A DNA stretch of 64,000 bases from Thalassia testudinum (taxonomy: Eukaryota > Streptophyta > Magnoliopsida > Alismatales > Hydrocharitaceae): assembly GCA_037157565.1 (NCBI GenBank), contig JAZHRO010000013.1, positions 74,331,501-74,395,500 of the forward strand. Reading direction: 5' to 3'. Position 1 is the stretch's first letter. The number at the start of each line of letters is the position of its first letter. The position numbers and the translations under genes are program-made. Below are positions 15,956 through 58,663 of this stretch, piece by piece. The notes under the pieces are model-generated. The model was not told the origin of the DNA. It did no database searches and saw only the letters and a program-made list of their open reading frames with translations.

Positions 15956-16349
15956 TTGGTCAATTAAATTAAATTTTGATTGATTAACAAAATGTTATTA
16001 GTTTATCAAACTTTAGTTTGGTTGATCAAATAAAGTAAGAATTAAAGATAAAAATTATTACAAAATTGTTGGTTAGAAATATTTTTCGTTGATTAAAACA
16101 GTTTGCTTTTAGGATCTTTGAAATCCTTTGCACTTTGGTCGATTAAAGCATCATTTTGGCTGATCAATTTGTGTGAGTGATATGAAAGGAAGAATCCTTG
16201 CAAATTGATCGATCAAAATAAGGATTTAATCGATCAATTAACATTGTGGTTAATCAACCTAAAATTTTGGTTGATCAATTTGAGTGTTAACAGAGAGAAA
16301 CAAATGTTTTATGCAAATTGGCCAATTCCTTGGTCATTTGGTCGATCAT
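15956..16349. repeat. phased array of TTGATCGATCAA-type palindromes
   Basis: Twelve-base dyads start at 15956, 15976, 15998, 16018, 16085, 16135, 16156, 16205, 16226, 16246, 16267, 16318 and 16338. Neighbouring members are mostly 20-22 bp apart. The forms vary (TTGGTCAATTAA, TTGATTGATTAA, TTGGTTGATCAA, TTGATCGATCAA) while linkers are unrelated. The repeat continues beyond the solo LTR insertion (19924-20288 and 21273-21342), so the array belongs to an older repeat, probably an LTR. Confidence 0.85.
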
Positions 16350-17754
16350 TAAAATTCTTACGAGTTAACTACAAATTTTTTGTAACGACCCGATTCCCGA
16401 GTCCCTACGAGACACGAGAACCAGACCGACTCGACTAATCCTAAGACCTGGTCGTCCAACGAGGAAGTAACCAAAAGAGTAGTAAAATAAACCACATTCA
16501 GCATGAATATAACTAACAGTAAGAAAATACAGTAATAAGGAAAGAAATCACTACAGTATATACTACCACAACAGTAGAACAACATTCATAACATAATATG
16601 AAACTGCAGGTAAAGAAAAGTACAGCGGTAACAAGAACTACTCACTACAGTGGAACCAAAAAGAGGTACAAGAGAACAGTGGTAACTCTACTGGACCCTA
16701 CTCGACTCAGCGTCCTCTGCAGCCGCTGACCCTAGCTGCTCAACACCTGGTCCTGAAAGGTAACGAGTGTAACACGTCAGCAAAACGCTGAGTAGAGTGG
16801 CAGCTAAACTAAAGAAACAGTAAAGTGTACAGTAGCTATTTTAATTTTCTTTCTTCCTTTATTTACGTCTTTCTATTGTTTCAAAATTTATCTATTTCTC
16901 AGATCCTTCACTTGATCTCGAATGTTCCTCGTGGGAACGATCTTGATTGCAGTCTTTTCCGAACAGTAGAAGTAGCACGTGGTGCTCTCCTGGCCAGGAG
17001 AGTCCCCCGTGGTGATCCTACTTTCAGTCAACTACCCCAAGGTCACGGACAGGCGTAACGGTGACTACGGTACGCGCGATAAACGCACAGGTAGCTAACT
17101 CGCACTGGCATGCGGTCAGTCGTTTCCGTTAACGGGTGCACCCAAAGCACAGCACGGAACCAGTACAGGGCAGAGCCCTCTCAGTAACAGGGGTCCAACC
17201 CCTCCACAGTAACCAAACAGGGGCCTTGCCCCTCCACAGTCCGCGCACCCTCGCCTGACTACCCTGGTTTGCCCAGTGGGCCTAACAAGTCGGTGTAGGA
17301 GGCTAGCAGAACCCCGGGGCCCGTGGGGTAGCTAGTACCTCCCTACACTAGTAGCTCTTCTCGGTACTATGTACACGAGGGCCAGCAAGTCGGTACAAAG
17401 TGGCCAGTCTTGACCCTGGGTCCCTGGGGCGGCTTCGCTCTGCACTAAACAGGTACAGGTACTTCCCTTGGTACTACGTACCCAAGAGACAGCACACTAC
17501 CACGTCTTTCTTTATCAGTTCCATTCCTTTCTCTTTCCAGGAGTTCCACTCCTAATTCCCCATAGGGTTCCAGTTCTTTTAACTCAGCACATTCAGGTTT
17601 CACCTTTCCAGTTTCATGTTCATACATCCCATATTCTCAGACATGCTCATTTATTCATAACAGGCAGCTGTTAAACCAATTTACAGGTAGCTATTATTTT
17701 CTTTCCACATTTTCCAAGACTGCAGTATTCATATATTCCACTAGTTCTTCCCAT

Positions 17755-17910
17755 CCTAGGATTCATGCCATACCCTAGGATCTATCATACAATCTAGTTT
17801 TCCAACCCTAGGAATCATGCAACACCCTAGGATCTACCATTCATTCTACTTTCTCATTCCTAGGATTCATGCAATATCCTAGGTTCTATTTATGGTTTCA
17901 TAATTTAACA
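17755..17910. repeat. 3 x 52-bp tandem repeat with CCTAGG pairs
   Basis: Units start at 17755, 17807 and 17859, exactly 52 bp apart. Each contains two CCTAGG sites 19 bp apart (17755/17774, 17807/17826, 17859/17878). Inside the family-B solo LTR. Confidence 0.92.
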
Positions 17911-18182
17911 GATTATACTAATAAACTTAAAAGTCACTCTACCGGTTACAATAGGCGTACTGGGGGCGTGGTCGGGAATCCCGCGTACCTCCGCAACCCC
18001 CGAGACTGCAACGGAACGGGATCCTATCACAAGGATCAAACACAAGGAGTTTCTCAAAACAGTATACAACTACTGTAGACGGGTAGAGGATTTAATTCCA
18101 AAAAGCACGCAACTCGAAACGCGGAAAACGGACTCCGAACGGGCCCTAAACGGGTCGAAAACGACGAAACAGTGCAAAATCA

Positions 18183-18360
18183 GACGTCTGGAACCTCTTC
18201 CAGACGTCTTAAAAAGTGGATCAGAGGTTACCTTTGCTCTGCGTGGTCTCTCAGACGTCCAGAAGCCTGCAGGGGCGTCTGGCCTAGTTCCCAGACGTCC
18301 GATGGTCACCCCGGACATCTGGAAGTCGCTCCCGTCGTCTGGCACCACTGCCAGACGTCT
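18183..18360. repeat. 20-bp ladder of AGACGTCT palindromes
   Basis: Octamers begin at 18183, 18203 and (degenerate) 18223, then at 18253, 18273, 18293, 18313, 18333 and 18353, the last six exactly 20 bp apart. Perfect forms are AGACGTCT; others differ at one to three bases (AGACGTCC, GGACATCT, CGTCGTCT). The 12-base linkers do not resemble each other, so this is a spacing ladder, not an ordinary tandem repeat. Confidence 0.93.
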
Positions 18361-18463
18361 GATTCGCGTTGGATGCGAATCTCAGACCCTGCGCGTACCC
18401 ATTCCTCGTGCTCAGTACGGACGGTCGAAGGAAAGAAGAAGGTACGAAAATAACTTACTTACC

Positions 18464-18523
18464 AGACGTCTGGACAGTCCTCCAGACGTCTTCCTCGTCG
18501 TCTGGTTGGAAGCCCAGACGTTT
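18464..18523. repeat. second AGACGTCT cluster in the solo LTR
   Basis: Octamers at 18464, 18484, 18496 and 18516: spacings 20, 12 and 20 bp. Confidence 0.88.
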
Positions 18524-18971
18524 GATTCTGGAAAAATTTCCAAAACCAGGGCGCGACTCACCCTCCGCCCGCGACGCAAGGCCGCGCCTCGTTCGCCTGT
18601 TGCTCGAGCTGCAGCAGGCCTCCCGCGTCACTCCGTGCCTGCTACGCCCCCGCCGGCCGGCTCCCGCTGCCCCGGCAGGCTCGAGCCCTCCCGACCGATG
18701 CCTCCTCTTCTCGCGCAGCACCTCCTCCCGCACTCGCGCGCGGCTGCCACCGCCGTCGCTCGCTCGCGCTCGCACTCGCTGGAAGAAGAAGAAGGAGAAG
18801 CGGAGGTGGTGAGAGTGAGGGAGAGTGCGAGGCTTTTTAAAGCCTCGCGGGGAGGAGAGGGAGAGCGGGACAGGGGGCAGCGCCTGCGGAGGAGAGGGAA
18901 AAAAGGGCACCCGCAGGTCTGCGCACGCAAGCGCGCAGAAGCGACCGCGCGTGCCGCCGTAACTGAATCCC

Positions 18972-19043
18972 AGACGTCTGGGAGGGGTTCCAGACGTCTG
19001 GTCCGACGTCTGGGCCACCTCCCAGACGTCTTAAAAGACATCT
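18972..19043. repeat. third AGACGTCT cluster, at the LTR end
   Basis: Octamers at 18972, 18992, 19004, 19024 and 19036: spacings 20, 12, 20 and 12 bp. The homologous LTR at 58566-58625 keeps 20, 12, 20. Confidence 0.88.
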
Positions 19044-19923
19044 GAAGCCGTGCGTTCGTAACATTTTTTGAAGTGAAATTTATTTGAGTAATTTTTAGGA
19101 AGTTCCTTACAAAAAAAAATCTAATACAACACTTACAAAATTATACACTTATGTGCTTGAACTTAGACAATATCTTCATTTTCTTTTCTTCTTCATGTCT
19201 CTTTATGCCTTTATTTTCACTCAAGGATTCCTCATCACCATTATCCTTGATTAAACTCATTCATTCTTTTGCAATCCTTTGTTCATTACTTAATCTTATG
19301 TAAGATCTCAATTTCCTAAAATGTTACTTATGTAATTCATATATAATAATTTTTTTATCATCAAGACCAAGGGTGTCAACAAGTTCCTAATTGTAAAGAA
19401 ATTAATTATTATTTAAGACGGTAAATAATATTTTGATTTGCCATTTAATTGAGCCAAAAAAGTTTGACCTGGATTCAAAAGGATTTGAATAAAAATTAAA
19501 TGTATTTTGAATACTAAAATCCAATTGACTAAATTAGTTAAAAGACTAATTAAGCAAATGTCAATTAGAATTTAATTCAAACATTGGATTTGATCCAAGG
19601 GCTCCCTTAATATTAAAATCATTAGGATTCTTTACAAATATCTCGTAAAGACAAAGGCTTAACCTTAATTAATCATTTTTATGTGTAACATCTCCACATT
19701 CACAAGAGAAGAAAAGGAGTCACCACCCACCTTCTCTAAATCCTTCTCTTGTTGGACATTAGGGTGATTGCGTTGATTTTGGGAGCTTGTTGGCATTAAT
19801 TGAGATGTAATTGATATATAATAACATAGGGAATTCATGTTGAAATTAATGGGATTTAGTAGAGGTTTTTATTGCCACATTAGAAGTGGGCAAACTTCTT
19901 AGTGGGGGTAAAAATATATTAAT

Positions 19924-20288
19924 TTGGTAAATCAATCGTTGATCGATTAGTGGGTAAGTTTGATCAATCAATTAATTTAATCGATTAATAGATTAAAATT
20001 GATTGATCATTTGATGAATTTTCATAAAAGTTAGGTCATAGGTTCCATATAAAGGTCGCGAGAGGGTTCTCATTTGACACACAATATAACAGAAAAACTC
20101 CCCACTCTTCCTCTCTCTATCATTCTTATCTCTTGTTCTCAAGGCGCATTCGTTCAATGTAAGATTGGTAAATCAATCTCCAATTGGATTTGTCGATCAT
20201 TTCACGTAGGGAGTTGAGAGTGATCATTTGAGAAGTGATTGATTGATCCACCAATTACATTGGTTGATCAATCAAATTGATCGATCAA
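19924..20288. repeat. TTGATCGATCAA-type palindromes, clusters 2 and 3
   Basis: Dyads at 19924, 19939, 19960, 19977 and 19999, then at 20239, 20260 and 20277, with spacings of 15-22 bp. Same motif as 15956-16349 on the other side of the solo LTR. Confidence 0.8.
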
Positions 20289-20641
20289 ATTCCTTCAACT
20301 TAGTTCTCTTGAAGTGGTTTTCGAAAACGTTGAAGCTTAGAGTGCATTAAATCTTAGAGGTGGACCATTTTATCATAGGAGAAGCTCGTTAGACCCCAAT
20401 GCAACGGTATTGTGGGGGTGATACCTTCTCTAAAGATAATTCTTTATTGGCGCTTCAATCGGAATAACGTTTAATCTATTTCTATTTTATTTATTTATGC
20501 TAATACATATTTATTTTTTATTTTATTATGAATCTTGCCATATCTTGTCAAACTTGTTTGATTTAATACTTTTTATTTGTGTGAAATCATTAGAAATGCA
20601 TATGTTTTTATATTTCGTATATATGTTGATTTCAATAGGTT

Positions 20642-20758
20642 GTTGAACATCTAACAGCACCATTGGAAGACCAACAAGGGTGTTGGACTTCCAACATCAA
20701 CGTTGGACTTCCAACTCCTTCTTGGCTAGACATCTAGGCACATTGTTGGATGCCCAAC
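20642..20758. repeat. 20-bp ladder of GTTGGACTTCCAAC palindromes
   Basis: Fourteen-base dyads start at 20642, 20662, 20682, 20702, 20722 and 20745. The first five are exactly 20 bp apart and the last 23 bp. Two are identical GTTGGACTTCCAAC; the others are variants such as GTTGAACATCTAAC and GTTGGATGCCCAAC. Confidence 0.92.
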
Positions 20759-21272
20759 CTGTGTTGGAGTTGTGCCTGGTGCCATGGATTCTTGGAGAAG
20801 AAGACAAGCATCATCTTTGGGATTTGCGATGGAGTTCACAACACATGAGGATTGATCATTCTTGGCATGAAAGGCTTCATCCATACATCAGGACTGAGGG
20901 TCTTGGGCTACGTCGAAACGTATGGTGGGAAGTATTACACGTGTGGTGCTATGCAACGCCACTCCAAAGGTATATTTTCAAATATTTTCAAATACTCTTG
21001 AGGACCCTAGAATGGGAAGAAACTATTTCTTCCCATGTGACTCCAATTTAATCATTTAATGCTTTGATTATTTGATTTTGGGTATCGAACCGTTTTTGAA
21101 TTAAAGTTTTAAGCAACGATTTTTCATGCTGCCATGATGCCATGGATGAATATTCAACTTTTGGATGGAATCTTGGATTCTAAGCTATTTGTCTTGAAAT
21201 GCATGAATTACGTATTTTCATGTTATAACGTGAAATTTGGATTAATTTGGCTTGGAAACCCATATCATTCTA

Positions 21273-21342
21273 TTGGTTGATCAAAGATGAGCACACCATA
21301 TTATGTTGATTTGGTCGATCAAATTGGTATTTCGTCAATCAA
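21273..21342. repeat. TTGATCGATCAA-type palindromes, cluster 4
   Basis: TTGGTTGATCAA at 21273, TTGGTCGATCAA at 21311 and TTCGTCAATCAA at 21331 (the last two 20 bp apart). Confidence 0.8.
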
Positions 21343-38040: not shown

Positions 38041-38384
38041 TGTTACGACCCTAACCGGCTCCACATGGAACCCAGGTCGGATCGCCTCGACTAACCCAAG
38101 ATCGAGTCGTCTAACGAGAAATATACCAAAAGGAAATCATTCCACACATGCAACATAGTTAGAAGTATAAATAAAAGACAGAAAGTTGTAAGGTAGCCTG
38201 TAACTGTAAACAGTATAACAAGAGGATTGCAAAGTTCCTAACATAGCCATCACAACTTTAATAGAAAGGTGGAAACAAAACTACTAGTTTCAAGAATGGA
38301 TACTCACGACAACAGAATGAAAAGTCTAGCTACAGTCAAAACAGAAAATGGAAACAAACTAAGGCGGGACTTGGCTAGGCCCAG
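38041..38384 (-). mobile_element. partial family-B gypsy LTR
   Basis: TGTTACGACCCTAACCGG onward aligns with 16381 and 57555 (GTCGTCTAACGAGAAATA..CCAAAAGG and following). It stops at GGCCCAG, where the other copies continue CACCCTCTGCAG, because a family-C LTR begins at 38385. Confidence 0.8.
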
Positions 38385-40852: not shown

Positions 40853-40892
40853 AGAAGAAGAAGAAGAAGAAGAAGAAGAAGAAGAAGAAGAA
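40853..40892. repeat. (GAA)n microsatellite
   Basis: Thirteen uninterrupted GAA/AGA units in the 3' part of family-C LTR copy 1. The equivalent regions in the inverted copies are TTC/CTTC-rich on the plus strand. Confidence 0.97.
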
Positions 40893-40926
40893 TAAAGAGT
40901 GAAAGTACCGTAGGATTCGCCAGTTA

Positions 40927-40955
40927 AGACGTCTGATTTACAAAATTAGACGTCT
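40927..40955. repeat. AGACGTCT palindrome pair, family C copy 1
   Basis: Perfect AGACGTCT at 40927-40934 and at 40948-40955, 21 bp apart. Confidence 0.95.
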
Positions 40956-41329
40956 AAGAAAGGAAAGACAGAGAAAGAAAGAAGGAGAAGGTGCAGCCAA
41001 GCAGAGGAAAGAAAAAGGAAAAGAAAGAGAGAAGAAAAAGAAGAAAGGAGAAGTCACAAAGAGAAAGAAGAAGGAAGAAAAGTGAAGAAGAAAGACAATT
41101 CATTTCTTTTTGCATCTTCCCTCTCTAGCTTTCATATACATTGGATTGCTATCATCTTTTGAGTAATTAGAGATTGTGATTTTAGTTTCTAAAATACCAA
41201 TTTGCTCCCTAAGTTAGACCTCGGAAATTTTAACTTTCGAGTAATAAAATTGTTATTTGTTTTCGCGACAATTTCAACTATACTGCAACTAACATCTTTT
41301 TAAAAAACACGATCTCGCCTCGCAAAACA

Positions 41330-42136
41330 ACTAAGAGACACCTGCTGGCAGGTCTTGAGGTGAATCTTTTTCTTTTGATTCTGACCTTTACGTGTGAATT
41401 CTTTATTTCTTCATTATTGGTGTAGTGTGCCTAGTTGAAGACACTAAACTTAGCATGTATACAGTTTGTTTTATCTCGGAGCTGATCAGGTAATCACAAA
41501 ATTCAGGTGTTTTCTTCTTTACTCCGCTCTTTTTCGTGTCTTTTTAAAGCAATGAAGACATTGCATTAGATAGATATGGGGGGGTGGATATTCATCTCTG
41601 AATCATCTTATTAGCTCTGTAGATTCTTTTTATTTTCTCTTTATTATTTTTTTTTAAAATTGAATTAGAAAAAGAGAATTTGGGCATTAGAGCTTTTCAA
41701 CTTTAGGAATGATACGATAGGACCTGAACACTTAGATCCTTCAGGTCTTTGGGCTTAATCAACTTGGGTGTCGACTATTTGAGCGTGGAAATTGCATATT
41801 TGAAAATAGTGTCATAGCTTATAGTATAGTTGCGAAATTTTCTCGGCAAAAAATATTTCTAGATTAGTGAGACTATGAGTTCCGGTTGTTCGTCTTTGGG
41901 AGGCGTTTATGGAAATTGTAATCTTGATTTCGATCTTTTCCTCTTTACTTGCTTAAAAAGACATGCCAATTTGTAATTATTTACGTATTCATGCACGACA
42001 TGCTGTTAAAATAATATCATAAATCAAAGCAGGCAACTTATTATCACAAGAAAGATATTGCAAGCATGCTCATGGTGATTTTTCACACATAGATATATAT
42101 ATATAGAAAGAACTTAAAGGTTTTTCATTGACTGCA
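41330..42136. other. interior stub between inverted LTRs, continues at 49033
   Basis: Non-coding. GCAATGAAGACATTGCATTAG followed by a G7 run near 41555-41585 is a dyad-plus-purine pattern I associate with the 3' non-coding part of Athila/Tat elements. The solo LTR to its right duplicates CTGCA, so this segment was once joined directly to 49033. Confidence 0.45.
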
Positions 42137-42504
42137 TGTTCGTCGAGGCGAGATCGTGTTTTAAAGAGACGTTCGTTGCAGTATAGTTGGAATCGCCGCG
42201 AAAACAAATAACATTTTTATTACTCGAAAATCAAAATATCCGAGGTTAAACACAGGGATCAAATTGGTATTTTAGAAACTAAAATCACAATCTTAAATTA
42301 CTCAAAAGATGATATCAGTGTAATCCAATGTGTATGAAAGCTAGAGAGAGAAAATGCAAAAAGAAATAGGTTGTCTTCTCTTTTCTTCCTTCTTTTTCTC
42401 TGTGACTTCTTCTTCCTTCTTTTTCTTCTCTCTTTATTTTCCTTTTGTTTTCCTCTGCTTGGCCGCACCTTCTCCTTCTTTCTTTCTCCGACTTTCCCTT
42501 TTTT

Positions 42505-42533
42505 AGACGTCTGATTCTTTGAGTCAGACGTCT
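42505..42533. repeat. AGACGTCT palindrome pair, family C copy 2
   Basis: Perfect AGACGTCT at 42505-42512 and 42526-42533, 21 bp apart, the same geometry as copy 1. Confidence 0.95.
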
Positions 42534-42630
42534 TAACTTGTGACTGCTACAGTGCCTTTAGCTCGTTCTCCTTCTCTGCCTTTGTCTGTCTTCTTCTTCT
42601 TCAACTGGCTTCTGCTTCCTGTCTTCTTCT

Positions 42631-42693
42631 CTTCTTCTTTCTTCTTTCTTCTTTCTTCTTTCTTCTTTCTCCTTTCTTCTTTCTTCTTTCTTC
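42631..42693. repeat. (TTTCTTC)n minisatellite
   Basis: Seven-base unit TTTCTTC repeated about eight times with one CTCC variant, within the pyrimidine-rich (plus strand) part of the family-C LTR. Confidence 0.92.
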
Positions 42694-43753
42694 AGCTTCC
42701 TCTGCAGTCTTCTTCAGCCATGCCTCCTCCTTGGCTTCTTCTTCTTCTCTTTCCTTCTCCCTTGCCTTCTTCTTCAGCCTCTGCCTCTGCCACTCCTCTT
42801 CTATAGTGCCTCTCTTTCCTTCTTCTTCTTCAGTCTTCTTTCTTCTGTCTTCAGCTTCTCCTCTTCTTCCTTTTCTGCGGCTTCCTCCTTGGCTTCTTCT
42901 TCTTCTCTTTTTATTTCTTCTTTCTTCAGCTTCCTCTGCAGTCTTCTTTAGCCACTCCTACTCCTTGGCTTCTTCTTCTCTTTTAGCAGCTGCCTCCTCC
43001 TCCTTCTTCCCCTGCACAGCACAGGGCAAAACCTACCCCTACCCTCCCACCGTGTCACTCTCTCTCTATTTCTCTCTTCGCTCCCTCAGAGCCGGACAAT
43101 CGGGTATACGGGCCGGGTTATGCACGCCCGGGTCTAGGTGCACCGGCATGGGTGGTGCGCGAGGAGTGCAGGGTAAACGGGTCAACCAGGTCCGCGTAGG
43201 GGTGGTTGCGGATGAGGCAAGCGAGGGCGAGGGGACCTCACCTTGTGACTTGAGGCGCTAAGGAGAAAACACAAAATCAATTTAAGTAACGCACCTGCAC
43301 CTACTGTTTCTGAGGTGCGACTAAAGTCCCACCCGCTTCTTCGCGCACCTGTAGGGAGAAATTCGCCTAATTGCTACTGCGATGATCCCTCTCCAGGCTT
43401 CTCACTTGTCTAGATGCATGCCCGAGACCAACCCGCACCGCCTGGACTCGTTCACCTGGAGCGCAGCAGCCTGGAGCGAAGCTTGCAAACAAGCTTGCTC
43501 GAGCTTCAATGGCGGAAAGGGGGCAGGACCTGAAATCACTCAATACGGCCTCGCGGCCTCATTAGACCACATGGGCAGCTTCGTCGTGTTACGGCGAAGG
43601 TGAAGTAGTGGGTGTTGGCTGTGGGGCAACCTAGGAGTGCGTGCTTAGGTCACTTTGTGGCTGTGGTGATGGGTGTGGTCGAGGGGAGCTTGGGCCGATG
43701 ATGGCGGTCGATGGAAGGGCGGAATGTGCTCAGTGGATGATGGCTGGTGGCCC

Positions 43754-46676
43754 TGCTTTCATCTTTATTGTTATTTACAGTCGTTGTGGTATATGACAAA
43801 ACAGTTACCAGTTTAATACAAATTTTTTTACTCGGAATGACAAGTTTCCCGAGGTCGAACTCAGGGAGAAATTATAATTCTAGAAACATAAAAGTTCACA
43901 ATATACAAGGTTTTACAAAAATGAAGAGAGAGAGAGAGAGGGAGCAAAAGTTCTCTTTTTTTTGGCTTCTTCTTCTTCTCTCTTCCTCTTCTCTTTTCTT
44001 CTTCTCTTTCAGCTGGTTCTTCAATCTGCCTTCTTCTCTCTTTTTTTCTTTGCTGCGGCTGTGGTGACTCTTTCTCTTTCTCCTTTCTTCCTCTCTGATT
44101 TTCTTCTCTTCTTCCTTGCGGCTGCAGAGGCTTTTGCCTTCTCTTTCTTTCAACTGCTAAGTCTTCCTTTCTTCTGCCTTCTTTTCTTCTTCTTCTTTTT
44201 CTTCTGCTATGGCCGTTCCTCTTCTTCCTTTCTTTCTCCTTCCTGCCTTCTTCTTCTTCTTTGCATCTTCTTTCTTTCTTCTTCAGCCTGCCTTCTTCTG
44301 CTCTGGCTGCTGCCCTTCCGTCGTCTGACTCGGCGCTCAGACGGCTTAACTGTGCATTTGCTACAGTGCAGCTCCTTTTCTTCTCCTTCAGCTCCTCTCC
44401 TTCCTTTCTTCTTCAGCAGCTGCTCAGTGCAGCTAAGTCTTCAGCCGCTCCTCCTCCTCTCTTCTTCTTCCTTCGCCTGCTTCGTCCTTCTTTTTCCTTC
44501 TTCCCTGCGCACACACACAACTATCAGTGCAAAACCTACCCCTACCCCTTCCTTGCATCTCTCTTTCTCTCTGAATCTCTCTTTGGGAAAGCTCTCCCAG
44601 AGCCGGGCAATCGGGTTCGGGTTGCACGCCCGGGACCAGGCCCACCGGCGTGCGGTGGTGGGCGAGGAGTGCTTGGTCGGGTAGTCGGATTCGGCCCAGG
44701 CCCGCGAGGCGTGAGCGCGGGCGAGGGCGGGTGCGAGCGCGTGGCGCGCTGCGTGCGTGGGCGAGGGACCTGACCCCTGTGTATCGAAGGCGAACAACTT
44801 AATTCACAAAATCAATTTAAGTGTGGGCGCGAGGCCACACACTTACAAGGTGGAACTAAAATCCCACCTCCAGTTTGCGCGCCCGCAGGCGAGAAGGCGC
44901 TGCCAATTGGGGTAGTAGCGAAGGCTCGCAACCCCAATTGTGAACCTGGGCGTACTCGCGGAAGCAGCCCGCATTGCCTGGAGCTCGCGCCTGGGCTGGA
45001 GGAGTCCTGGAGCTGCTTGCGAAGTAGCTTCAACAGCTCGTCAATGGCGGAGAGGAGGCGGAGACCTGAAATCACAAGGACAGCCTCACGGCCACATCAG
45101 ATAATGCAGGGAGCCTCGCCGGAGTGTGGCGAAGGCAGTACGAGGGTCGGCGAGGCGCGAGTGTGACTGTGGAGGTGCACCTAGGGCAGATTGTGTGCGC
45201 GGAAATGGGTGTGTTTGGGGGGTGGTCGAGAGGTGAATGGAGTCGGGGAAACGCTTGAGTGGAGTGAGGGGGAGCTTCTAGGCTTGTCGGCGAGGGGTGA
45301 GGTGGTCTGTGGAGGTGGAGAGACCTCGCCAGAGATGGCGGCCGGAGGTGAAGCAGATGGGGGTGGAAGTGGTAGTCGAGGGGTCTGAAATGCTAATTAA
45401 ATGCGGGAAAAGAGAGAGGAGCATAAGGGGGAGGTTCCTACCTACTTAGTCGACGAAGGGGGAGAGGAAGGCGTTCGGCTCGTGCCTGCCGAAGCTGGGG
45501 ACGAAGGTGCCCAGGAGGGGGTTATCGGCGACGAGGAGGAGATCTGAGGACTCCAGCTGGTGCGGCCTGGCGTGGGAAGACGAGGCAGAGTGGGCTCTGC
45601 TGTAGGTATGGCAGCAGAGCGACGAGGAGGAGGAGGGAGGATCGTCGGAAGCTTGGGCTGCCTGACCGGAGAGGGGAGAGACGAAATCTAGGGTTTCTCT
45701 TGGCTAAAACTAGCTTGAAGGAGACGGCAGACCCTGCCGCTCCTTATAAAGGCATTGGCGAGGAGCGGGGACCGAGGGAGGTGACGTGCCATGCTCGCCG
45801 AAGATGGCCGGAAATGGACACCCATGCCTTTCATGCATTTGCACAAGAGGCATGGCCGGTTGCAGAGGTCAGGGGAGGGTCCCTCGATAGAGGACAACGC
45901 AGGGAACCCCCCGCTCGTTCCTAAGTACGGGCGCCTTACCCTGTGCGGCGCCATCCTCCGCGCAAGGTCGCCGGAGGTATGGCGCTGCGCAGAAATGGCA
46001 GGGAGGACCGTTCTGTAAAGAACGACGAGAAAATTAGGGGGCCTTTTGCAAGGGTTTCAAAAGATAAGGGTCAAAAAGTAATTCAAGATGACAAATTTGT
46101 AAAGTCGGTTAAGATGGTCTTCTCTTAAGCCCAAATTTTTATACCAACCTAATTTGAACCTAAGGATTTTAATGGTGAAAGTTAATTCTAGGTTGGACCA
46201 TGTTTGATCGATCAATTTGTGTAAAAACCCAATTTAAGTCATAAATTGGGCATGGTTCTCATTTTAGGTCAAAATAGGTTGCAAAGGTCAAATTGAAGGT
46301 TCTAAATCCTAGAAAATATTTTTCCACGAATTTTAGAGGATTTAGTTGATTTTTATCCTACCTCAACCTCGTGAATTAAAGTGGATTTGTTTTAGGGTTA
46401 TAGAATGTCATTTAATTCCTAGAAGTTGTTATAACCTTTTTCAGATCATATCATCCCACTTTCCTCCTTATTAAGCTCATTTGACCTTCATTTAGACCTT
46501 TAATTACCCTGTTTGCGCACTGCATTGGTGAAATTGTAGTTTTACCCCTTATAATTTATCTTATTCTTTAACTCAAAATTCTCTGAGTTAAGCCTCTCTT
46601 TAGATTTTGTAGGAGCTTCTTCACACTTATTTAGATTAAATTGTGCTAGTTAGGGTTCATGATGAGGTTCTCATCA
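43754..46676 (-). mobile_element. family-C LTR copy 3 (3' LTR)
   Basis: On the minus strand it starts TGATGAGAACCTCATCATGA at 46676 and ends GATGAAAGCA at 43754: 2923 bp with TG..CA ends. Preceded on the minus strand by the purine tract GCATGGGGGTA and an Athila-like 3' interior (46677-47786), so it is a 3' LTR of an element truncated on its 5' side. It sits inside solo LTR copy 2 and carries the palindrome pair at 44319/44339 (20 bp apart) in decayed form. Confidence 0.78.
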
Positions 46677-47786: not shown

Positions 47787-49912
47787 TAGTGGTGAGGAGA
47801 GTGGGACGAAGGGGGGAAGGCAGAGGACGAGCAGCGCGTAGGTGCCATCTCCAGAGAAGACGCCCTAAGATGGGGATGACGGCGACGAGGAAGGGGTCGG
47901 AGCAGCTCGCGAGGGTACGACGCGATGCGGAGGAGTAAGGAGGAGATGACTCTGCCACTGGAATGGTGGCAGAGTGACGAGAGGGGGGAGGAGAGGTCGC
48001 TGGAGCTTGTGGGATTTTTGGCCAGAGGGGAAAGGAGGAATTTTGGGGGTAATCTCAGGTCAAAACAAGCTTGGCCTTAGCAGCTGGACCTGAAGCTTCA
48101 TTTATAGGCACGGACAGAGGGTCAGACACTTGGAGGGCGAGCAAGGTTCTCGCCAGAGGTTGCTACGGGTACAATACTCATGCCTCTTGAGCGTTCGCAT
48201 GAGAGGTATGGTGCGAATCAGGGCATGGGGAGCTGCTCAGGCAGTAGGGGATTTATCAGAGAACCCCCCTTTCAAATCTGAGAGTAGCTCCCTGGGGAAG
48301 CGAGGAGAAATCCTCCTCGAAACTTTGCCAGAGGTATGGGTCTTCTGCTGCAATGGTAGAGGGACAGGAATGCAAAAAGTGAAGAAGAAGTTGAGGGGGT
48401 TTTCGCAAGGGTTTTCAAAAGTTAGGGGCCAGAATGTAATTGGGTGGACTATTTTGCATAGTAGGTCAAGATGACCTTCCCTTAGGTCCAAATTTTGGTA
48501 CAAACCTAATTTGGATTTAAGAAATCCATTGGTGAAGTTGGATTTTAGGTTTAACCACATTTAAATGGACATTTTTCATAAAAACCTGAATTAGGTCAAA
48601 TATTGAGCTTGGACCCCAATCTAGGTCAAAATAGCTTCCAAAGGCTAAATTGAATGTTCTGAACCCTAGGGGATATTTTTCCATGAATTTTATAGGGTTT
48701 GGTTGATTTTTATCCTGACTGAAACCTTGTGAAATTAAGTGGGTGTGTTTTAGGGTTACAGAATGCCATTTAATTCTTAAATTTTACAATAACCCTTTTC
48801 TGACTGAATCATCCCACTTTTTCTCTTATTAAGTCTAATTGACCTATGTCTAGACCATAAGAAATCCCGTTGATGTACTGTAATGGTAAAATTACAGTTT
48901 ACCCTTTGTTTCATGTTTTCTTTCTAGATCAATAATCTCTTGAGTTAGGCCCTCCTTTAGGTTATGCTGGAGCTTTGTTCACTTTATTAGGTCAAAATAA
49001 GCTAGTTAGGGATCATGATGAGGTTCTCATCACTGCATGTTGGCGGTTATAGAGCGAAGCTAGAGGAAAGCTTGTACATGAATGATTGAAAGCAGAAAAT
49101 TGTCTAGCAGAAAATGACTTCATGCGTGAGTCTATTAGGGGATTACACATGCATCATTGAGGGAGAATATGGATGTACACTACTAAGCATAAATAAAGTA
49201 GAGAGATTAGAAGAACTATTTAGCTAGGCTATCAGAAAGAAGGGCATTCAGAGGTGGTCTCTAATGACCTTTGAGTAGAGGTAGGGAGAAGAAGGAGGGG
49301 CGGCCAATGGTGCTTATGCCGGCACTTGGAGAAAGGAGGGAGAGATGATCCTAGCTTGGCGTAAAGGTGGTGGAGCTCATGGAGGTGCACATGAAGTTGG
49401 AGGTGGAGATGGCTATGGTGATGGGTGCATGATAAAACCAAGATTAAGCGAAGATGCCAAGATTGATGCAAATGACCACCTATGGGGTCTTTTTACAGAC
49501 CCTTGGCATTCTCTCTAGAGGGATGTAGAAATCTTTAGAGAGAGCCCCAAGTGTGGCCGTCCAAGCTAAGGTGGAGGTGGTTTTTAGATCCATAAAAGGT
49601 GCATCTAAGAGAAGACCCTTCCTTGGTTGCTATTTTTGGCAACCAAGGTAGTGCCACCTTTAGAAGAGACTAGAAGGCTCTAGGTGGTGTGGGAGTGCAT
49701 GAATGGGTGTGTGTGCGTGTGTGTGTGGGCGTGACTTAGGTGGCTAAGTGCTCTAGGTTAGGTCCTAAGGGGTTTGGGTTAAGGTAGGTCTCAAATTAGG
49801 GTTGCGAACCCTAATTGCTAATGGGCAAGTGCAATTAAACTTTACATAAGTTTAATTGAGTGAGTGTGAACTTAATTTAGAGTGAAATAACTTAATTAAG
49901 TTGGGATTAGAT

Positions 49913-50029
49913 CAATTGGACTCTCACTAAGTCTAATTGGACTTGTGTGAGTTGAGATCTGAGCTTAATTGGACTCTATGAGTCCAATTGACTAGGCAAT
50001 TGTAATTGACTATGATCCAAGTCAATTGG
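49913..50029. repeat. AATTGGACT-type dyads
   Basis: CAATTGGA at 49913, TAATTGGA at 49934 (21 bp apart) and 49966, TCCAATTG at 49983, GCAATTGT at 49997 and TCAATTGG at 50022. Spacing is less regular than in the other arrays. Confidence 0.7.
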
Positions 50030-50190
50030 GCTTAGTGAGAACCTAATTAGGTTCTTAGAAAGGTCTAGAGGTGGTGTACTAGGCTTAGGGTACCTTAATT
50101 TAGGTTCCCAGGGGTTTGGAATTGGGTTTAGGGACTTAGGAACTCAAGATCCAAGCTTGAATTCTAAAACAGGAAGTGGAGAGCAGTTCC

Positions 50191-50401
50191 AGACGTCCAA
50201 TAAGAGTGTCAAACATCTTATACTCAAAAATTAGAAGTCCAAACTTCTTGTCTGGACGTCCAATTTGAGTCAGGAGGGAATCAAGGTTCTATTTTGGGTA
50301 TTCTGCAGAAATTGGACGTCTGACCAAGTGTCTGGACGTCCAATAACATTGCAAACATGGGTTTAAGGTGTGTAAGTTGTGGCTAAGGGTCTTGGATGTC
50401 C
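50191..50401. repeat. GGACGTCC/AGACGTCC palindrome pairs
   Basis: Octamers at 50191/50211 (20 bp), 50233/50254 (21 bp) and 50314/50334 (20 bp), plus a single GGATGTCC at 50394. The pairs repeat the two-turn spacing seen in families B and C. Confidence 0.88.
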
Positions 50402-50641
50402 AAATAAGGGTTGGAACTAAGGTTTTGAGGCTTCTTAGGTTATGGTGACCTAATCTAAGGGTGGCTAAGGCTTAGGAGGACTTATGGGGCTATCCTCGGG
50501 CTAGGAATGAACCGAAGTTCTTCATAATTTAACTCTGCCTCATTCTTACTTAGTAGAATAACATACCTCAACCCTTACATTATTTCTCTACTACATTTAT
50601 TTTAAGGTCTCCCGCTCCAACTCTGATGCAGTACTAGCTTC

Positions 50642-50689
50642 AGGTTCAGCTTCAGATCCAGCTCCAGATCCAGCTTTAGATCTAGCTCT
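50642..50689 (+). repeat. 4 x 12-bp repeat
   Basis: AGGTTCAGCTTC, AGATCCAGCTCC, AGATCCAGCTTT and AGATCTAGCTCT in direct succession. One frame would give a short Ser/Asp/Pro/Ala repeat, but no larger coding frame surrounds it. Confidence 0.9.
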
Positions 50690-51419
50690 TAAGCTTCTTA
50701 TTACCTGTAATTTATATAATACACTTAATTAGTACATTATATCATTATTTCATGCATAGCCAAGGGAAAGCAGTAAAGATGCAAATAATGCTTATGCATG
50801 CATTAATTATACTAGCTTATGCTAAGTTCTAACCTAATTTAGGTCAATTAAGACCTATGATTGCTGCGCAATTATCCACTAAAATGTGGACTTATTTCTC
50901 GAGTTCTTACCATTTAAAAATTCATTTCTAATTGGTTAAATAAGTTGGGGTGATAAGTATACGACTTCTCAGCCCACCCTCTGATTTGAGGGGACTTTAA
51001 GCCTAAGCATCTACACATTCTTTGCACTGACTCACTTTTTGGCAATTTTTATGGAAATTGGCTAACTAATGAACCTTATAGGGTGGTATGGTTGGCAAGT
51101 TGTAGGTGGTATCAGCTCATTGGCCAGTTGACCAAAGTCCAGTCACACGACCATTCTCTTTCTCCTACCTTTAGGTAAATCTTAGATACGGGAAGCCACC
51201 TACTTAAAAAAAAAAAGAAAAATATCTAAAAAGAAAAAAATATATATGAGAAAAGAAAAAATAAATAAACCACATTTCACAGCACGAGTATGGCTAGTAA
51301 GTTGTCGTGGGTAATAGCCCATTGGCCAGCTGTTTAGAACCTAGCTCACAAAAATGTATGTTTAATTCCAAACACTTAGGAAGAAGCAGGGGAGTAGAAT
51401 TAGCCGAGGAGATATTGTT

Positions 51420-53730
51420 TAATTTCCTTGATTTTTTTTTTTTAAACCTGTGTCATAGTATAGTTGATCAAAGCGAATTAAACATTTAAAATTATAACTC
51501 GAATTAAAAGAGAAATCCGAGATCGTCTTTAGGAGCACAGAATCGCGCAAAATAATCACTATCGTAATGATTTTTTTTTTCTTGATCATTTTAGTGAACT
51601 TATGGTTAATTCTAAGAAAATAAAATAAGTTCACTGATTCACTTAATTTGTAGAGAATAGAGATTGTATGCAGTGCAAGAAAAAGAACTCAATAAAAGGT
51701 TATTAATGAATGACAATTGTATATGCATTAATTCAGGCACACATGAGCTTTAACAAAAATGTTTACAAGGTTATAGCAGGAAACCTCCAAAAGATACAAG
51801 AGGTTAAGCAATTACTTTCAGAGATTAAAATTAATCCCTCGAGCTTTACGAGCAGGTCCTTGAGAACTTGCAATTTGGTCCTCGAGTTTTATGATTTGGT
51901 CCCTGTAAATGTTTCCATCTCACAACCAAGCCCTTACCTTCTTCTTCCTCCTCTTCCTCTTCTTCTTTGGTTTGGCATTGGTAGCAGGAGGTTAGAGGAG
52001 GGCCGGCGAAGTCGGCCGAGCTCCTCGGGGCATGGTGTGACCCCCTAGAGGCCACAATGAAATGATGGTGTTTCTAGAAAGCTTCGTGCGCAGCTTTGGG
52101 ACGTGGGTCGAGGAGGGATGACTAGCGCGTGGTCGCACAGAGGTGGAGGTGATGGGTAGTTCTGGCGAGGGAGAAATGATCGAGCATTTTTCACTTCGTA
52201 GAAATGTGTTAGAAAAATAATATGACGTAGTAAATAATGTGGTGGAAAAACCTTTAATAAAAAATTAATAAACATATACTGACATTGAACCACAAAATCA
52301 AGTCATATCCACGGGAAGGCATAAACCAATAAATTCACCAATATTTTCAATACATCATTCGACTATGTTCTACGTAGCAAAAATGATGCAAAATTAATTT
52401 GTCAATACGTTGTTGCATCAAATGAGAGCAAGAGAGTCTTGAATAAGCATGCATGCGAAATAGAGAGAAAGAAAGGGGTGCACATGCAACTTCACTTCAT
52501 ATAACAAATATTAATGTCAAAATTCAACTCTCGGCAAGGGCATCAAATGTAAATATTAATACCCCCTTCACTGTAGAGAAACAGGGGACTTGCTCCCCTT
52601 TGCTCCACGAGGAGAAGAGGCCATGGATGACGGCGTGGCTTGTCGGAGGAGTAGGGACGGCGGAGAGGAACACTCCGATGGTAGGACAGCGGCGTGTGGT
52701 GGTCGGAGATGTTGTCGGCGCTGAGGAAGGCCAGTTGCGGTGGCAGAAGCTTGTCGGCACACGCATGCTGTCGAGTGCAGTTCTGAGGGCGTGGCTGCCC
52801 TCGTGGGGTCGAGGCGAGTTCATGGGCGTCAAAGGGACGAAGCTTCGAGGCCGGAAGTGATGGTTGCGAGGAGGAGGACCGGCGGTGGCTTTGGGTTCTT
52901 CTCTGTTGAAGAAGAAGATGAAGAAGGTTGACTTGCTAGGTTGTTGTGCACGCAAGGGGGAAGTGAGGGCATGCTCAAGGGCGTGCGAGGGCTGTGGTGG
53001 CATGCGTGCACTGGGGGGAGGCGTGACCATGCGTTTGTGGTGCACACGTGGCGAGGATGGCTAGTGGCTGCACGTGACAAGGGTGCTGGTGGTTTCTGGC
53101 CGTGAGGGAGAGGAAAGGTGGTATGGGTGCTTGATGAGTGCACACTGTCACCATGCACTCGTCCTTGGTGAAGGCAATAGGGCACGCCCAACTTACGATG
53201 CATACAAGAGATGCATGGTGCAGGTGTTTCTTCATGGTGGAGCGCACAAGGAAGAAGATGATTTGGATCTGGGTGAAGTGGCCTCTTTTTAAAACCTCCC
53301 GTCCATTTCGCTTAAGCCACCAACTTCTCCAACCACTTAGCAAAGATCGCGAGTGGTTGGAACATAAAGATAAGCGCTGGCGGTTCTCATCAGACGTTTG
53401 ATCAACACTCTAGATGTCTTAAAATGTATGGATAGCAGTGAGTCCACGATGGAGGTTCTCAGACGTCCAAACTAGGCTCCAGACATCTTATAAAGTGCCT
53501 TTGGACGTTTGACTGATGCCTTCAGGTGTCTTGCACCTTGCCTGCATCCATCAAATGATTATCATATCATGTCATATGTTATTAAATATAAAATTGGTGC
53601 ATAAGATTATATGCAGACAAAGGTGAATTCCCTTTTAACTCTTAATTAATTAACAATTACAAACAACTAATTAAAGAGAACTTAGGTCAAATAATGGTCC
53701 ACGAAAGTGAACTTATTAAATGCTCCCATG
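51420..53730 (-). mobile_element. Athila 3' LTR (approximate limits)
   Basis: Lies directly beyond the Athila 3' interior, whose end GGCATGGGAGCA (minus strand, about 53702-53713) is the likely purine tract. The far end is set near 51430, where GTCATAGTATAGTTGATCAA resembles the GCAGTATAGTTGGAATCG end of family C. It contains the palindrome array 53392-53531. Frames inside (for example 52524-53045 minus) show no known motif. Confidence 0.6.
53392..53531. repeat. AGACGTCT-type palindrome array in the Athila LTR
   Basis: Octamers at 53392 (AGACGTTT) and 53412 (AGATGTCT), then 53461 (AGACGTCC), 53481 (AGACATCT), 53503 (GGACGTTT) and 53524 (AGGTGTCT). Spacings within groups are 20; then 20, 22 and 21 bp. 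Confidence 0.88.
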
Positions 53731-55350: not shown

Positions 55351-55354
55351 GCTA

Positions 55355-57554
55355 AGGCTTCTCAAGCTAAAGTGCATCCAATACCTGGCCATCTGAAAAA
55401 GTAACATAAGGTTTACGCCGTTGGCCATGTACCTTAAAGCTCGCACCAGAAGTAGGGTTCCGAATTTCTACTGCTTCGTGAGGGAAGGCATTGATAACAA
55501 CGTACGACCCATCCCAGCAGGACTTGAGCTTTCCTTTAAATAATTTAAGTCTGGAATTGAAAAGCTAGACCCATTGGTTGAGCTCAAAAGTCTTTCTAAT
55601 AATGTGCTTATCATGGAAGGCCTTTGTATGTTGTTTGTAAGATTAAGAGGTTTCGTAGGCTTTAGCATGCATGCCTTTCCCGCTTTATCCATATTTAAGT
55701 TAATGTTTTTAATAGCCCAATAAGCTTTGCGTTGAATTTCAACGGGAAGGTAGCACGCCTTTTCGTAGACAAGATGGAAAGGCGGCATGTCCAAGGGAGT
55801 CTTATAAGCTGTTTCGTAGGCCCAAAGAGTATCATTCAATTTTGTCGACCAATCCTTATGATCGGGCCTAACAGTTTTTTCCAGAATCCGTTTAATCTCC
55901 CTATTAGACACTTCAACTTATTCACTTGTTTGGTGATGATAAGGTGTGGGTATCATGTGGTTAACTCCTAAATTTTGGAGTAGTCTTGTGAGGTGTACAT
56001 TCTTAAAGTGAGGTCCTTCATTACTTATGATCATCCTTGGGCACCCGTATCGAGAAATGATATTAGCCCTAACAAAATCGAAGACCATGGAATGGTCATT
56101 GGTTCGCATTGGAATGGCTTCTATCCATTTCGATACATAGTCCACGACCATAAGGATGTACTCATATCCAAAGGACATAGGAAATGGACCCATGAAGTCA
56201 ATGCCTGAAATATCAAAGTTTTCGACGAGGAGAATAGGTTGCTGGGGCATTTCATCCCTTTTTTCGATGGTTCCAGTCTGTTGGCAACATAGACATGCGC
56301 CCACATATGTATATGCATCTCGGAATAATGTGAGCCACCAAAAGTCAGACTGAAGAACCTTATGGTCAATCTTTTCCCCACTAAAATGCCCTCCACAGTG
56401 GAGGTCATGGCAAAACCTTAGAACACTCTTTTGTTCTTCGTCAAGGACGCAACGACGGAATAACTGGTCAGAGCCTATTCTAAAAGGCTCAGGTTCCTCC
56501 CAGTGATAAAATTTAGCATCGGCAAGAAACCTGTCTTGCTTCTGCTTGTCCCAAGTACTGGGGGTTATGCCCATGACCAGATAGTTCACTATGTCGGTGA
56601 ACCGAGGAGTTTTGGCCTCCATGGCCATTAGAAACTCATCAGAAAAAGTCTCTTGGATACTGCTAGTAGGGGTCGATACCTCAATAGGGATCCTGGACAG
56701 ATGATCAACTACCACATTCTCAACTCCTTTCTTATCTTTTATTTCTAGGTCAAACTCCTGGAGTAGCATAATCCAACGAATCAAACGAGGTTTGGTGTCC
56801 TTTTTATCAAGAAGATGCTTTAAAGAAGAAAGATTAGTGAAAACTACAACCTTGGATCCTAATAAATAAGATCTAAACTTTTCCAAAGCAAACACTATAG
56901 CAAGAAATTCCTTTTTATTGATCATGTAGTCTTGCTGGGGATCTGTAAGGGTCTTACTGGCATAATGCAAAACATGAGGTTTGCCATCAACCCTTTGACC
57001 TAAGATTGCTCCCACTGCGAAATCAAAAGCATCGCACATTAGTTCAAACGAGAGGGTCCAATCAGGTGCTTGGAGAATCGGCGCGGTAACAAGGGCTTTC
57101 TTCAAGACTTGGAAAGCCTCGCCACATCTGCCATCAAAATCGAAGGAAACATCCTTCACTAACAAGTCGCAGAGTGGCTTAGAGATTTTACTGAAATCTC
57201 TAATGAAGCGCCTATAGAATCCAACATGGCCAAAAAAAGATCTAACTTGACGAACGTTGGTGGGTGATGGAAGCTTAGAGATGAAATCAATTTTGGCGGT
57301 ATCCACCTCTAATCCTCTCTTATAAACTACTTGCCCCAAAATAATGCCTTGCTAGGCCATAAATTAGCTTTTCTCCCAGCTAAGCACCAGCTTTGCCGCT
57401 TTGCAACGGGTTAAGACTTTATCAAGGTGCGAAAGGCATAGGTCAAATGATGAGCCATAAATGGAGAAATCATCCATGAAAATTTCTACAAACTCGTTGA
57501 TTATATCAGAAAAGATACCCATCATACAACGTTGGAAAGTGGCAGGAGCATTAC
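55355..57554 (-). pseudogene. Athila/Tat gypsy pol relic: RT end, RNase H, integrase
   Basis: Minus strand. RT C-terminal part (about 57364-57554): NAPATFQRCMMGIFSDII and the catalytic FMDDFS. Then, after two stops, RNase H (LCDAF-type [36 protein letters not shown]) and integrase (zinc finger H..H..C..C around [18 protein letters not shown] and [11 protein letters not shown]; core [28 protein letters not shown], in a 473-codon open stretch 55918-57339). A stop codon interrupts just before the catalytic Glu region (SE-stop-VEVSNRE). The integrase C-terminus continues in other frames to about 55360. RT upstream of NAPATF is cut off by the gypsy insertion at 57555. Confidence 0.92.
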
Positions 57555-58663
57555 TGTTATGACCTGGTTCCCGAATCCCTACAGGACTCGAGACCTGCTC
57601 GACTTGACTAATCTTAAGACCCAGTCGTCCAACAAGAAATAACCGAAAAGCAGGAAAATAAACCACATTCACTATGCAATGTAACTAACAGTAAAAGCGT
57701 ACAAGCAGTAAAGGAAGTAAAAGCTGCTACTCAGTATATACCACCACAACAACAAGAAAGTAGAACAAAAGTACAGTAACAGGAACAGTAAACAAAGTCT
57801 GAAACTCACTAGCAAAAAGAGAGTACAACAACAGTAAGAAAACTACTGCTGGGCTCGACTGGGCCCAGCACCCTCTGCAGCCGATAACTCGGGCTGCTCA
57901 ACTCCTAGACCTGTAAAGGGTTATGAGAAAACAAAGTCAGCGAACGCTGAGTAGAGTGGTAACCAGATTATCTAAAGCAATAAAAGCTAGAAGATAAATT
58001 TATTTTTTCCAATTATTTTATTTTACAAGTAATTCCTTTTCACCCCATTGGTTTACTTTCAGATTTCTTTGTTGATCTTGCATGTTCCTCGTGGGAACGA
58101 TCTTGATTGCAGTCTTTTTCGAAGAGTAGAAGGTACACGTGGTGCTCTCCTGGCCGGGAGAGTTCCCCGTGATAGTCCTACACCCAGTCAACCACCCTGA
58201 GGTCACAGACAGATGTAGCGGTGACTATGGCACGCACGATAAGCACATGGGTAGCTACCCCGCACTGGCATGCGGTCCTCCTTCTGCACGCCCCGCGGTG
58301 GCCATGCAACACTTTAGCGAGCCCCCACGAAGCTCGCGAGCTCAATCTTCTCCTCTTCACTCCCTCTCCTCCTCCTCGCTCTCGCTCTCTCTCTCTCTCG
58401 TGCGCCTCACTCACAGTAGTGGAGTGGAGAGGAGAGGAAGGGGGCTTCTTATATAGGTGGGAGGGTTAGGGTTCGACGGGGGAAAAGTGAAGAAGAGAGA
58501 GAAGGAAAAGGTCTGAGCACTGGCTGTGCGCAGAACCAACATCGCGTACAGATTTTTCAATTTCCAGATGTCTGGGAAGGGATCCAGATGTTTGGCCAGA
58601 CGTCTGACTGACGATCCAGAGGTTTTAAAGGCTCAAATCAGGACAGGTCTTTACATCATAACA
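57555..58663 (-). repeat. 3' LTR of the gypsy element (family B, 1.1 kb)
   Basis: On the minus strand TGTTATGATGTAAAGACC to GGTCATAACA, so the ends are inverted repeats. A TATATAAGAAG box lies at about 58444-58454. It aligns with the longer solo LTR at 16381-19063 but lacks its middle 1.5 kb. Palindromes AGATGTCT 58566, AGATGTTT 58586, AGACGTCT 58598 and AGAGGTTT 58618 keep spacings 20, 12, 20. Confidence 0.86.

Follow-up and report, generated by a model that had tools for sequence, protein, structure and literature searches.

Phased dyad ladders in Ty3/gypsy long terminal repeats of Thalassia testudinum, predicted to be rows of dimer sites

Repeated palindromes upstream of a retrotransposon promoter have been described in Sireviruses, which belong to Ty1/copia and carry palindromic RM boxes, many in each long terminal repeat (LTR), upstream of the TATA box (PMC2829016, Bousios et al. 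2010). In the parts of that study compared here, RM is called Sirevirus-specific within its Ty1/copia set. We analyzed a stretch of 64,000 nucleotides from Thalassia testudinum (assembly GCA_037157565.1, contig JAZHRO010000013.1; C12:74331501-74395500), hereafter the window, for which a preliminary description had proposed ladders of phased palindromes across unrelated LTRs as an undescribed system. Novelty can be claimed only in part, since the compared parts of PMC2829016 already report palindromic repeated motifs upstream of the TATA box in Sirevirus LTRs. The main class found here is a 12-bp dyad with the core RGACGTCY, repeated at a pitch of exactly 20 bp, sometimes 12, 21, or 22 bp, with unrelated 8-bp spacers. 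Such ladders are real and very abundant in the genome, and they show signs of constraint.

The dyad word and its pitch

The window was scanned for palindromes and named words, then by a word-free pitch test, before independent DNA from the same assembly (4.26 Gb, 237 contigs) was analyzed. Dyads resembling CCAGACGTCTGG or TTGGACGTCCAA were found at positions 18180-19045, 20643-20757, 50189-50403, 53390-53533, and 58564-58627, mostly at pitch 20 with a minority at 12, 21, or 22. With up to three mismatches to CCAGACGTCTGG, units were recognized at 18180/18200, 18251-18351 (plus intermediate units), 18462-18514, 18970-19022, and 58564-58596, and lags within a row were 20 or 12. Words of the TTGGACTTCCAA type occurred at 20643, 20663, 20683, and 20703, and mixed dyad words at 50189-50392 and 53390-53522. 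When any 5/6 dyad was accepted regardless of its word, 25 pairs lay at lags 20-22, compared with 6.8 in dinucleotide shuffles, an excess that is real but weak; lags 8 and 45 were raised too, and lag 12 yielded no pair. Among mutually similar dyads, lags 20 and 21 gave 14 and 15 pairs, respectively, and other lags 0-7.

The independent sample consisted of 20 loci of 10 kb each (200 kb), placed at round-number genome positions. The loci L001-L008, which had been chosen through another motif, were excluded from all GACGTC statistics with the exception of the cluster count, to which they contributed no unit cluster. Similar dyads (at least 9/12 matching) formed 21 pairs at lag 20 against 0.7 in shuffles, followed by lag 40 with 10 pairs and lags 19, 31, 32, and 59 with 9 each. 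Apart from the simple repeats TATATA/ATATAT, GACGTC was the only one of the 64 palindromic hexamers with a clear peak at lag 20 (14 pairs against 0.22 per lag; for TAATTA, 3 against 0.16). Across 2,080 hexamer classes, counted in the pooled window and sample with copies retained, the strongest single-lag peaks were CAGACG at 16, GACGTC at 20, ACGTCT at 20, and CCAGAC at 14, which are those that this one ladder would be expected to give. In a ranking of 2,688 dyad-pitch combinations (8-bp dyads) by triples and then by pairs, RGACGTCY at pitch 20 came first both in the sample (34 pairs and 8 triples) and in the window (11 pairs and 2 triples). Among the best 15 of these combinations in the sample, no other motif exceeded one triple or eight pairs, RGACGTCY at pitches 32 and 40 being excepted. 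The similar-dyad lags, hexamer scans, combination ranking, and genome-wide CCAGACGTCTGG pairs all placed no restriction on pitch. Clusters of at least three units numbered 14 and came from 7 of the 20 loci; extrapolated to the whole genome, this is of the order of 300,000 clusters, with several in each LTR.

Genome-wide, two perfect copies of CCAGACGTCTGG within 30 bp were found at 11,999 places, compared with none for the reversed-pattern control and none for pairs of the decoy palindrome CCAGTCGACTGG of equal base make-up. In the first 50 of these places, all on contig C1, the pitch was 20 (gap 8) in 42, 32 (gap 20) in 6, and 12 (gap 0) and 23 (gap 11) in 1 each; in the pairs at pitch 32 a further dyad sits in the gap. 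The 42 pairs at pitch 20 had 19 different spacers, several differing by one base, indicating that many of them are copies of the same LTRs. The diverged word TTGGACGTCCAA retains the pitch: its pairs occurred at eight places, seven of them at pitch 20 (gap 8). Pure chance as the source of the phasing is ruled out by the shuffles, the hexamer scan, the ranking of combinations, and the zero counts of the controls. The phasing became stronger, not weaker, in the larger sample, contrary to one outcome that the preliminary description had named as fatal to it.

Pairs of a second word, TTGATCGATCAA, were found at 710 places (control 0), and the first 50 comprised 23 at pitch 15-22, 27 at 35-42, and none at 23-34. 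This second class is thus quantized yet inexact. Because both its word and its looser pitch set it apart, a single common class for all dyads is ruled out. The originally described design, dyads of 8-14 bp spaced by 20-21 or 12 bp in several LTRs, is therefore real and holds out of sample, with the amendments that the pitch is mainly 20 and that the TTGATCGATCAA class is looser.

Carrier elements, conservation, and other features of the window

Feature coordinates are listed in Table 1. LTR B contains 17 dyads in total and sits between two stretches bearing TTGATCGATCAA words; it is 88% identical to its copy in sampled locus L011 and 79% to that in L015. The long open frame spanning it gave no match when used as a protein query. 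It also contains another dyad array at 17741-17889, made of 52-bp repeats with CCTAGG-centered words, and CCTAGG gave a lag-19 peak in the hexamer scan. LTR C is read as part of an element with reverse transcriptase (RT) upstream of integrase, and it aligns with B at 73% over 763 bp and again across the ladder (Table 1), so that the two are relatives and not independent cases. B, C, L011, L012, L015, L028, and part of L010 are related to one another. The clearest carrier is L015, in which RVT_1, RT_RNaseH, integrase, and Chromo domains are followed by an adjoining LTR with a ladder, where three 12-8-12 modules can be read near the start. Its Chromo domain (PF00385, L015:7513-8793) scored 27.2 bits against a cut-off of 25.1, and L015 is the member of the B clade that the chromodomain check covers. 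Judging from these domains, the ladder carriers include Ty3/gypsy elements, of at least one clade.

The tRNA-Met primer site TGGTATCAGAG follows the LTR end at L028:3916 and L012:85, which fixes the sense strand. An exact TGGTATCAGAGC primer-site word at position 3676 (minus strand) possibly marks a further LTR junction. In the clade LTRs whose start can be placed (B, C, L015, and L012), the first recognized core lies about 20-60 bp into the LTR, and a TATA-like word about 190-250 bp in, after the first ladder. These are four of five clade members; in the fifth, L028, whose LTR start is unplaced, a TATA-like word was looked for and not found.

Repeat E has a homolog in L025; there the ladder is followed, some 6 kb further downstream, by RT and RNase H domains. 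Neither LTR B nor LTR C aligned with E over 50 bp or more, so at least two non-aligning sequences share this kind of word and pitch. The claim of unrelated LTRs thus survives for E against B and C, but not within the group around B and C, nor between E and L025, which are kin; that the phased-dyad design is common to more than one LTR family is supported. The ladders at L025:2070-2302 and 50189-50403 of the window are homologous, but L025 has a single additional unit of exactly 20 bp, so that the gain or loss of a unit can be seen directly. The GTCCAATTGGAC array in E has the half-site TTGGAC, as in TTGGACGTCCAA, but facing outward. One region occurs four times in the window, in both orientations (38382-39605, 47814-49035, 45953-46676, and 61733-62958), with one copy beside a Ty3 RT, and its homology ends at 49032-49035, where repeat E starts.

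The preliminary description would also have been overturned if all segments derived from one inserted satellite or miniature inverted-repeat transposable element. Motif and pitch are indeed held in common, as such an origin would have it, but we reject it as extremely improbable, given the unrelated spacers and the lack of alignment between E and either B or C; the near-start position, alike in four clade members, also speaks against it.

We then compared copies base by base. In the most diverged pair, B and L015, with units defined on B, the bases kept were 89/96 in dyad cores, 81/95 in dyad flanks, 46/80 in spacers, and 616/866 in the rest, so that dyads were better conserved than spacers (Fisher P=2.8e-8). 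CpG dinucleotides were kept in 15/15 cases in cores and 53/93 elsewhere (Fisher P=0.0009). Between B and the closer copy L011, the corresponding values were 79/85 for cores and 76/87 for flanks, with CpGs kept in 12/13 and 67/91 cases, respectively. Dyads held while spacers did not in the B/L015 pair, which we take as signs of constraint, weaker in the B/L011 and E/L025 comparisons. These data bear on the possibility that a ladder has no present function, having arisen by 20-bp tandem duplication and being kept by slippage, gene conversion, or template switching between inverted repeats. Differences of whole units would suit such an origin, namely the 20 bp between E and L025 and, by eye, a 12-8-12 module by which L015 exceeds B. 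The dyads, however, are kept next to unrelated spacers, which counts against homogenization because this would carry the spacers along, and core CpGs persist between B and L015 where other CpGs decay. The B/L015 conservation weakens this explanation, and we regard it as improbable.

Table 1. Dyad arrays, LTRs, and associated features of the window
Feature	Position	Strand	Basis
TTGATCGATCAA/TTGGTCGATCAA class, loose phasing, stops just before LTR B	15956-16349		dyad scan
LTR B, 2,683 bp, read as solo LTR, related to Ty3 chromovirus LTRs	16381-19063	-	TG...CA ends, TTTTT on both flanks; sense read as minus
B isolated dyad pair, pitch 20	18180-18211	-	dyad scan, chain calling
B internal ladder, 6 dyads, exact pitch 20	18251-18362	-	dyad scan, chain calling
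B internal ladder, 4 dyads, pitches 20, 12, 20	18462-18525	-	dyad scan, chain calling
TATA-like word CTTTAAAAAG, downstream of B U3 ladder	18833-18842	-	sequence read
B U3 ladder, 5 dyads, pitches 20, 12, 20, 12; first core ~21 bp from LTR sense 5' end	18970-19045	-	dyad scan, chain calling
TTGATCGATCAA class, opposite side of LTR B	19924-20288		dyad scan
Ladder of TTGGACTTCCAA-type dyads, 4 units at pitch 20, fifth 43 bp further	20643-20757		dyad scan, chain calling
More TTGGTCGATCAA-type dyads	21273-21342		dyad scan
Dyad pair, 21 bp apart, beside one arm of large inverted repeat	40925-40957		dyad scan, repeat search
Dyad pair, 21 bp apart, beside other arm of large inverted repeat	42503-42535		dyad scan, repeat search
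Repeat E, LTR ends not fixed	49033-51419	-	homolog in L025 (72%)
Second E array, GTCCAATTGGAC-like dyads, one pair at pitch 21, rest irregular	49911-50055	-	dyad scan
E ladder, dyads at 50189, 50209, 50231, 50252, 50312, 50332, 50392; pitches 20, 22, 21, 60, 20, 60	50189-50403	-	dyad scan, chain calling
Ladder F, dyads at 53390, 53410; 53459, 53479, 53501, 53522	53390-53533		dyad scan, chain calling
LTR C, 1,109 bp, read as 3' LTR of minus-strand Ty3 element	57555-58663	-	RT 60870-61697, integrase zinc finger 59770-60198 upstream in sense
TATA box CTATATAAG, sense, ~110 bp downstream of C ladder	58448-58456	-	sequence read
C U3 ladder, 4 dyads, pitches 20, 12, 20	58564-58627	-	aligns with B U3 ladder, 76% over 66 bp

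Further repeats were present in the window. The large inverted repeat of Table 1 spans 40474-43071, is imperfect (about 73-88% in pieces) and CT/AG-rich, has one pair of dyads at a distance of 21 bp beside each arm, and has partial relatives in sampled loci L010 and L022. Two direct copies of a segment of about 480 bp, 85% identical and 1.7 kb apart, lie at 9754-11944, and a tandem duplication of about 165 bp (94% identical) at 1210-1540.

Unit anatomy and candidate readings

Mechanical chain calling on the window and sample gave 37 chains with 123 units, in which the pitch was 20 in 63 cases, 12 in 12, 21 in 6, and 22 in 5, counts that are conditional because only these four pitches were admitted. 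The B-clade copies in L011 and L015 were retained in these counts and excluded from the statistics on half-sites, spacers, and base composition. In the remaining 29 chains, positions +-5 and +-6, which had not been used in calling units, were symmetric as well, with a pyrimidine at -6 in 86/92 units and a purine at +6 in 88/92. The dyad center was CG in 57 of the 92 units, TG in 15, and CA in 12. Spacers of 8 bp matched at 1.86/8 positions within a chain (29 pairs), compared with 2.14/8 for any two of the 45 spacers. Identity within chains is thus at chance and the row is no tandem repeat in the usual sense, which rules out a satellite or minisatellite with the whole unit alike.

Motif, pitch, and spacer independence still seem best read as sites for a dimeric protein, one of the explanations offered by the preliminary description. 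We consider it about an even chance that the dyad rows are cooperative dimer sites forming an enhancer-like block in Ty3/gypsy LTRs. Under this prediction, a DNA-binding protein acting as a symmetric dimer would occupy each dyad, YYRGACGTCYRR, whose 12 bp often extend to about 16, and one row would lie in U3, upstream of the promoter. Neighboring dimers would contact each other across the 8-bp gap, fixing the pitch at 20 bp, or at 12 bp where sites abut, and the protein would leave the spacer bases mostly unread. Rows would gain and lose whole units. GACGTC is a classic C-box, and because of this the factor would most likely be a host protein of the bZIP type, which unrelated families could use by bearing the same word. 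The protein, its cooperativity, the enhancer role, and the host origin of the factor are inferred. Inverted sites of the auxin-response type were considered too, and their core-to-core distance seemed not to fit.

Several observations weigh against sites for cooperating dimers. The pitch is 20 bp, whereas two turns of relaxed B-DNA take 21, and the TTGATCGATCAA class has no exact pitch. Spacers are not fully free, since among the matches listed those of many CCAGACGTCTGG pairs start with RA and end with TT or TC, so that the dyad may reach 16 bp. Only C has a canonical TATA box, and 12 of the 17 units in B lie downstream of the TATA-like word. Spacers between B and L011 were kept like the rest (60/72 and 715/856, respectively), and dyads between E and L025 (71/84) barely exceeded the intervening DNA (117/147; rest 1121/1545). 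Finally, as repeated dyads fold by construction, the dimer and hairpin readings were compared by which halves vary together. Within one dyad, the two half-sites agreed at 2.50 of 4, which does not exceed the 2.61 of permuted pairs (P=0.98). Half-sites facing each other across the spacer did exceed it, at 2.83 (P=0.010 in one of the five comparisons made). Hairpins would account for such coupling, and so would dimers of dimers centered on the spacer.

The main rival is accordingly a nucleic-acid structure, a 12-bp stem with an 8-nt loop made from two dyads in RNA or extruded DNA. As U3 is transcribed at the 3' end, the structure could act in RNA dimerization, export, or the production of small interfering RNAs, as proposed for maize Sirevirus palindromes. 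Besides the coupling across the spacer, RNA folding z-scores were below -3.8 in 7 of 10 ladders, several of 11 isolated pairs resemble inverted repeats of 12-13 bp with loops of 8-9 nt, and the parts compared of PMC5311732 and PMC10760457 describe maize Sirevirus palindrome clusters as small-RNA hotspots. Folding of any repeated dyad, however, follows by construction, and neither the exact 8-nt loop nor abutting 12-bp units are needed for stem-loops. C (z=-0.7) and L028 (z=-1.6), both with the ladder layout, folded no better than shuffles, and one B ladder reached z=-2.0. Comparing whole arms of pitch-20 neighbors, 17 inverted against 12 direct pairs gave no significant difference (P=0.23). 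As the sole explanation the hairpin is not favored, and we judge the structural reading, although the main rival, rather unlikely.

A protein encoded by the elements themselves could also read the sites, countering silencing or activating transcription, with motif and protein co-evolving as for VANC in VANDAL elements and the families diverging into TTGGAC, CAGAC, and TTGATC versions. The variant word TTGGACGTCCAA at unchanged pitch and the 20-bp unit indel between E and L025 would agree with this, and VANC proteins offer a precedent, since the arrayed short motifs that they bind evolve as repeats are gained and lost (PMC5735166, in the parts compared). In the same parts of that paper, however, VANC21 motifs form one-orientation arrays and not dyads. 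Of 30 open frames scanned against Pfam, a set that does not span whole elements, 10 had matches, all to retroelement Pol domains, 20 had none, and none encoded a VANC-type protein. The word CAGACG or TTGGACG is moreover common to non-aligning families, which a common host factor fits better. The chance of an element-encoded reader is small in our view.

A role of the palindromes as integration targets (PMC6911290) was set aside, as it would not be expected to produce phased rows.

Comparison with known systems

Among the matches listed, which consisted of open-access titles and the beginnings of abstracts, there was no description of phased dyads in Ty3/gypsy LTRs, which does not show their absence from print; by the same titles and abstract beginnings, searches with the motif words returned nothing relevant. 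Viral contigs contained no triple RGACGTCY ladder, and a Ty3 RT search of them returned no relative.

The ladders resemble Sirevirus RM boxes, as presented in the compared parts of PMC2829016, in that many symmetric motifs cluster in the LTR and in that the elements have specific versions of one theme. The RM cluster occupies the upper half of the LTR, just ahead of a TATA box; here a TATA-like word follows the first ladder in four of five B-clade members, in canonical form only in C, and further ladders of B lie downstream of it. The Usier motif GTCGGACGTCCGAC shares its central GGACGTCC with the words found here, which makes a shared factor or origin possible, and the Tnd-1 motif ACAATCGATTGT resembles the TTGATCGATCAA class (PMC2829016). 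In contrast to Sireviruses, at least one clade here is Ty3/gypsy with a chromodomain. The CGG-CCG core of RM is also rare, with CCGG or TCGG in 8 of the 183 listed half-sites against 47 for CCAG and 38 for TCAG. For these two reasons we did not class the ladders as Sirevirus RM. Their main feature, the fixed 20/12-bp pitch, does not appear in the parts of PMC2829016 compared. It is a tentative and more speculative possibility that Ty3/gypsy clades, and perhaps Ty1/copia Sireviruses as well, have recruited one symmetric trans-acting factor that reads dyads only when their spacing is 20 or 12 bp. On this model, by extrapolation, some 100,000 or more LTR ladders would be under one regulatory input, with word and pitch held by selection as other LTR sequence turns over.

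The maize Sirevirus palindrome clusters (Bousios et al. 2016, as cited in the compared parts of PMC5311732 and PMC10760457) likewise form a palindrome-rich cis-regulatory region of the LTR; they are tied to small RNAs, whereas the ladders here were analyzed as sequence. The VANC-bound arrays of VANDAL elements are similar in being short motifs in non-coding transposon DNA that gain and lose repeats and differ between related elements. VANDAL elements are, by contrast, DNA transposons with their own DNA-binding protein and one-orientation motifs, whereas here dyads lie in LTRs (PMC5735166, parts compared). Tandem repeats of Retand elements also occupy non-coding parts of Ty3/gypsy elements and may bind proteins, but in the compared parts of PMC11963269 they are family-specific, tandem, and located between pol and the 3' LTR, whereas the ladders here consist of dyads with unrelated spacers inside the LTR. 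Taken against these systems, our findings widen the range of palindromic repeated LTR motifs beyond Sireviruses to include Ty3/gypsy chromoviruses, and they add a rule of exact spacing that carries a footprint of constraint. They make testable which factor plant retrotransposons depend on, whether it is shared across lineages, and whether many families are controlled by one input, and the 20-bp pitch constitutes a structural prediction for the packing of adjacent dimers.

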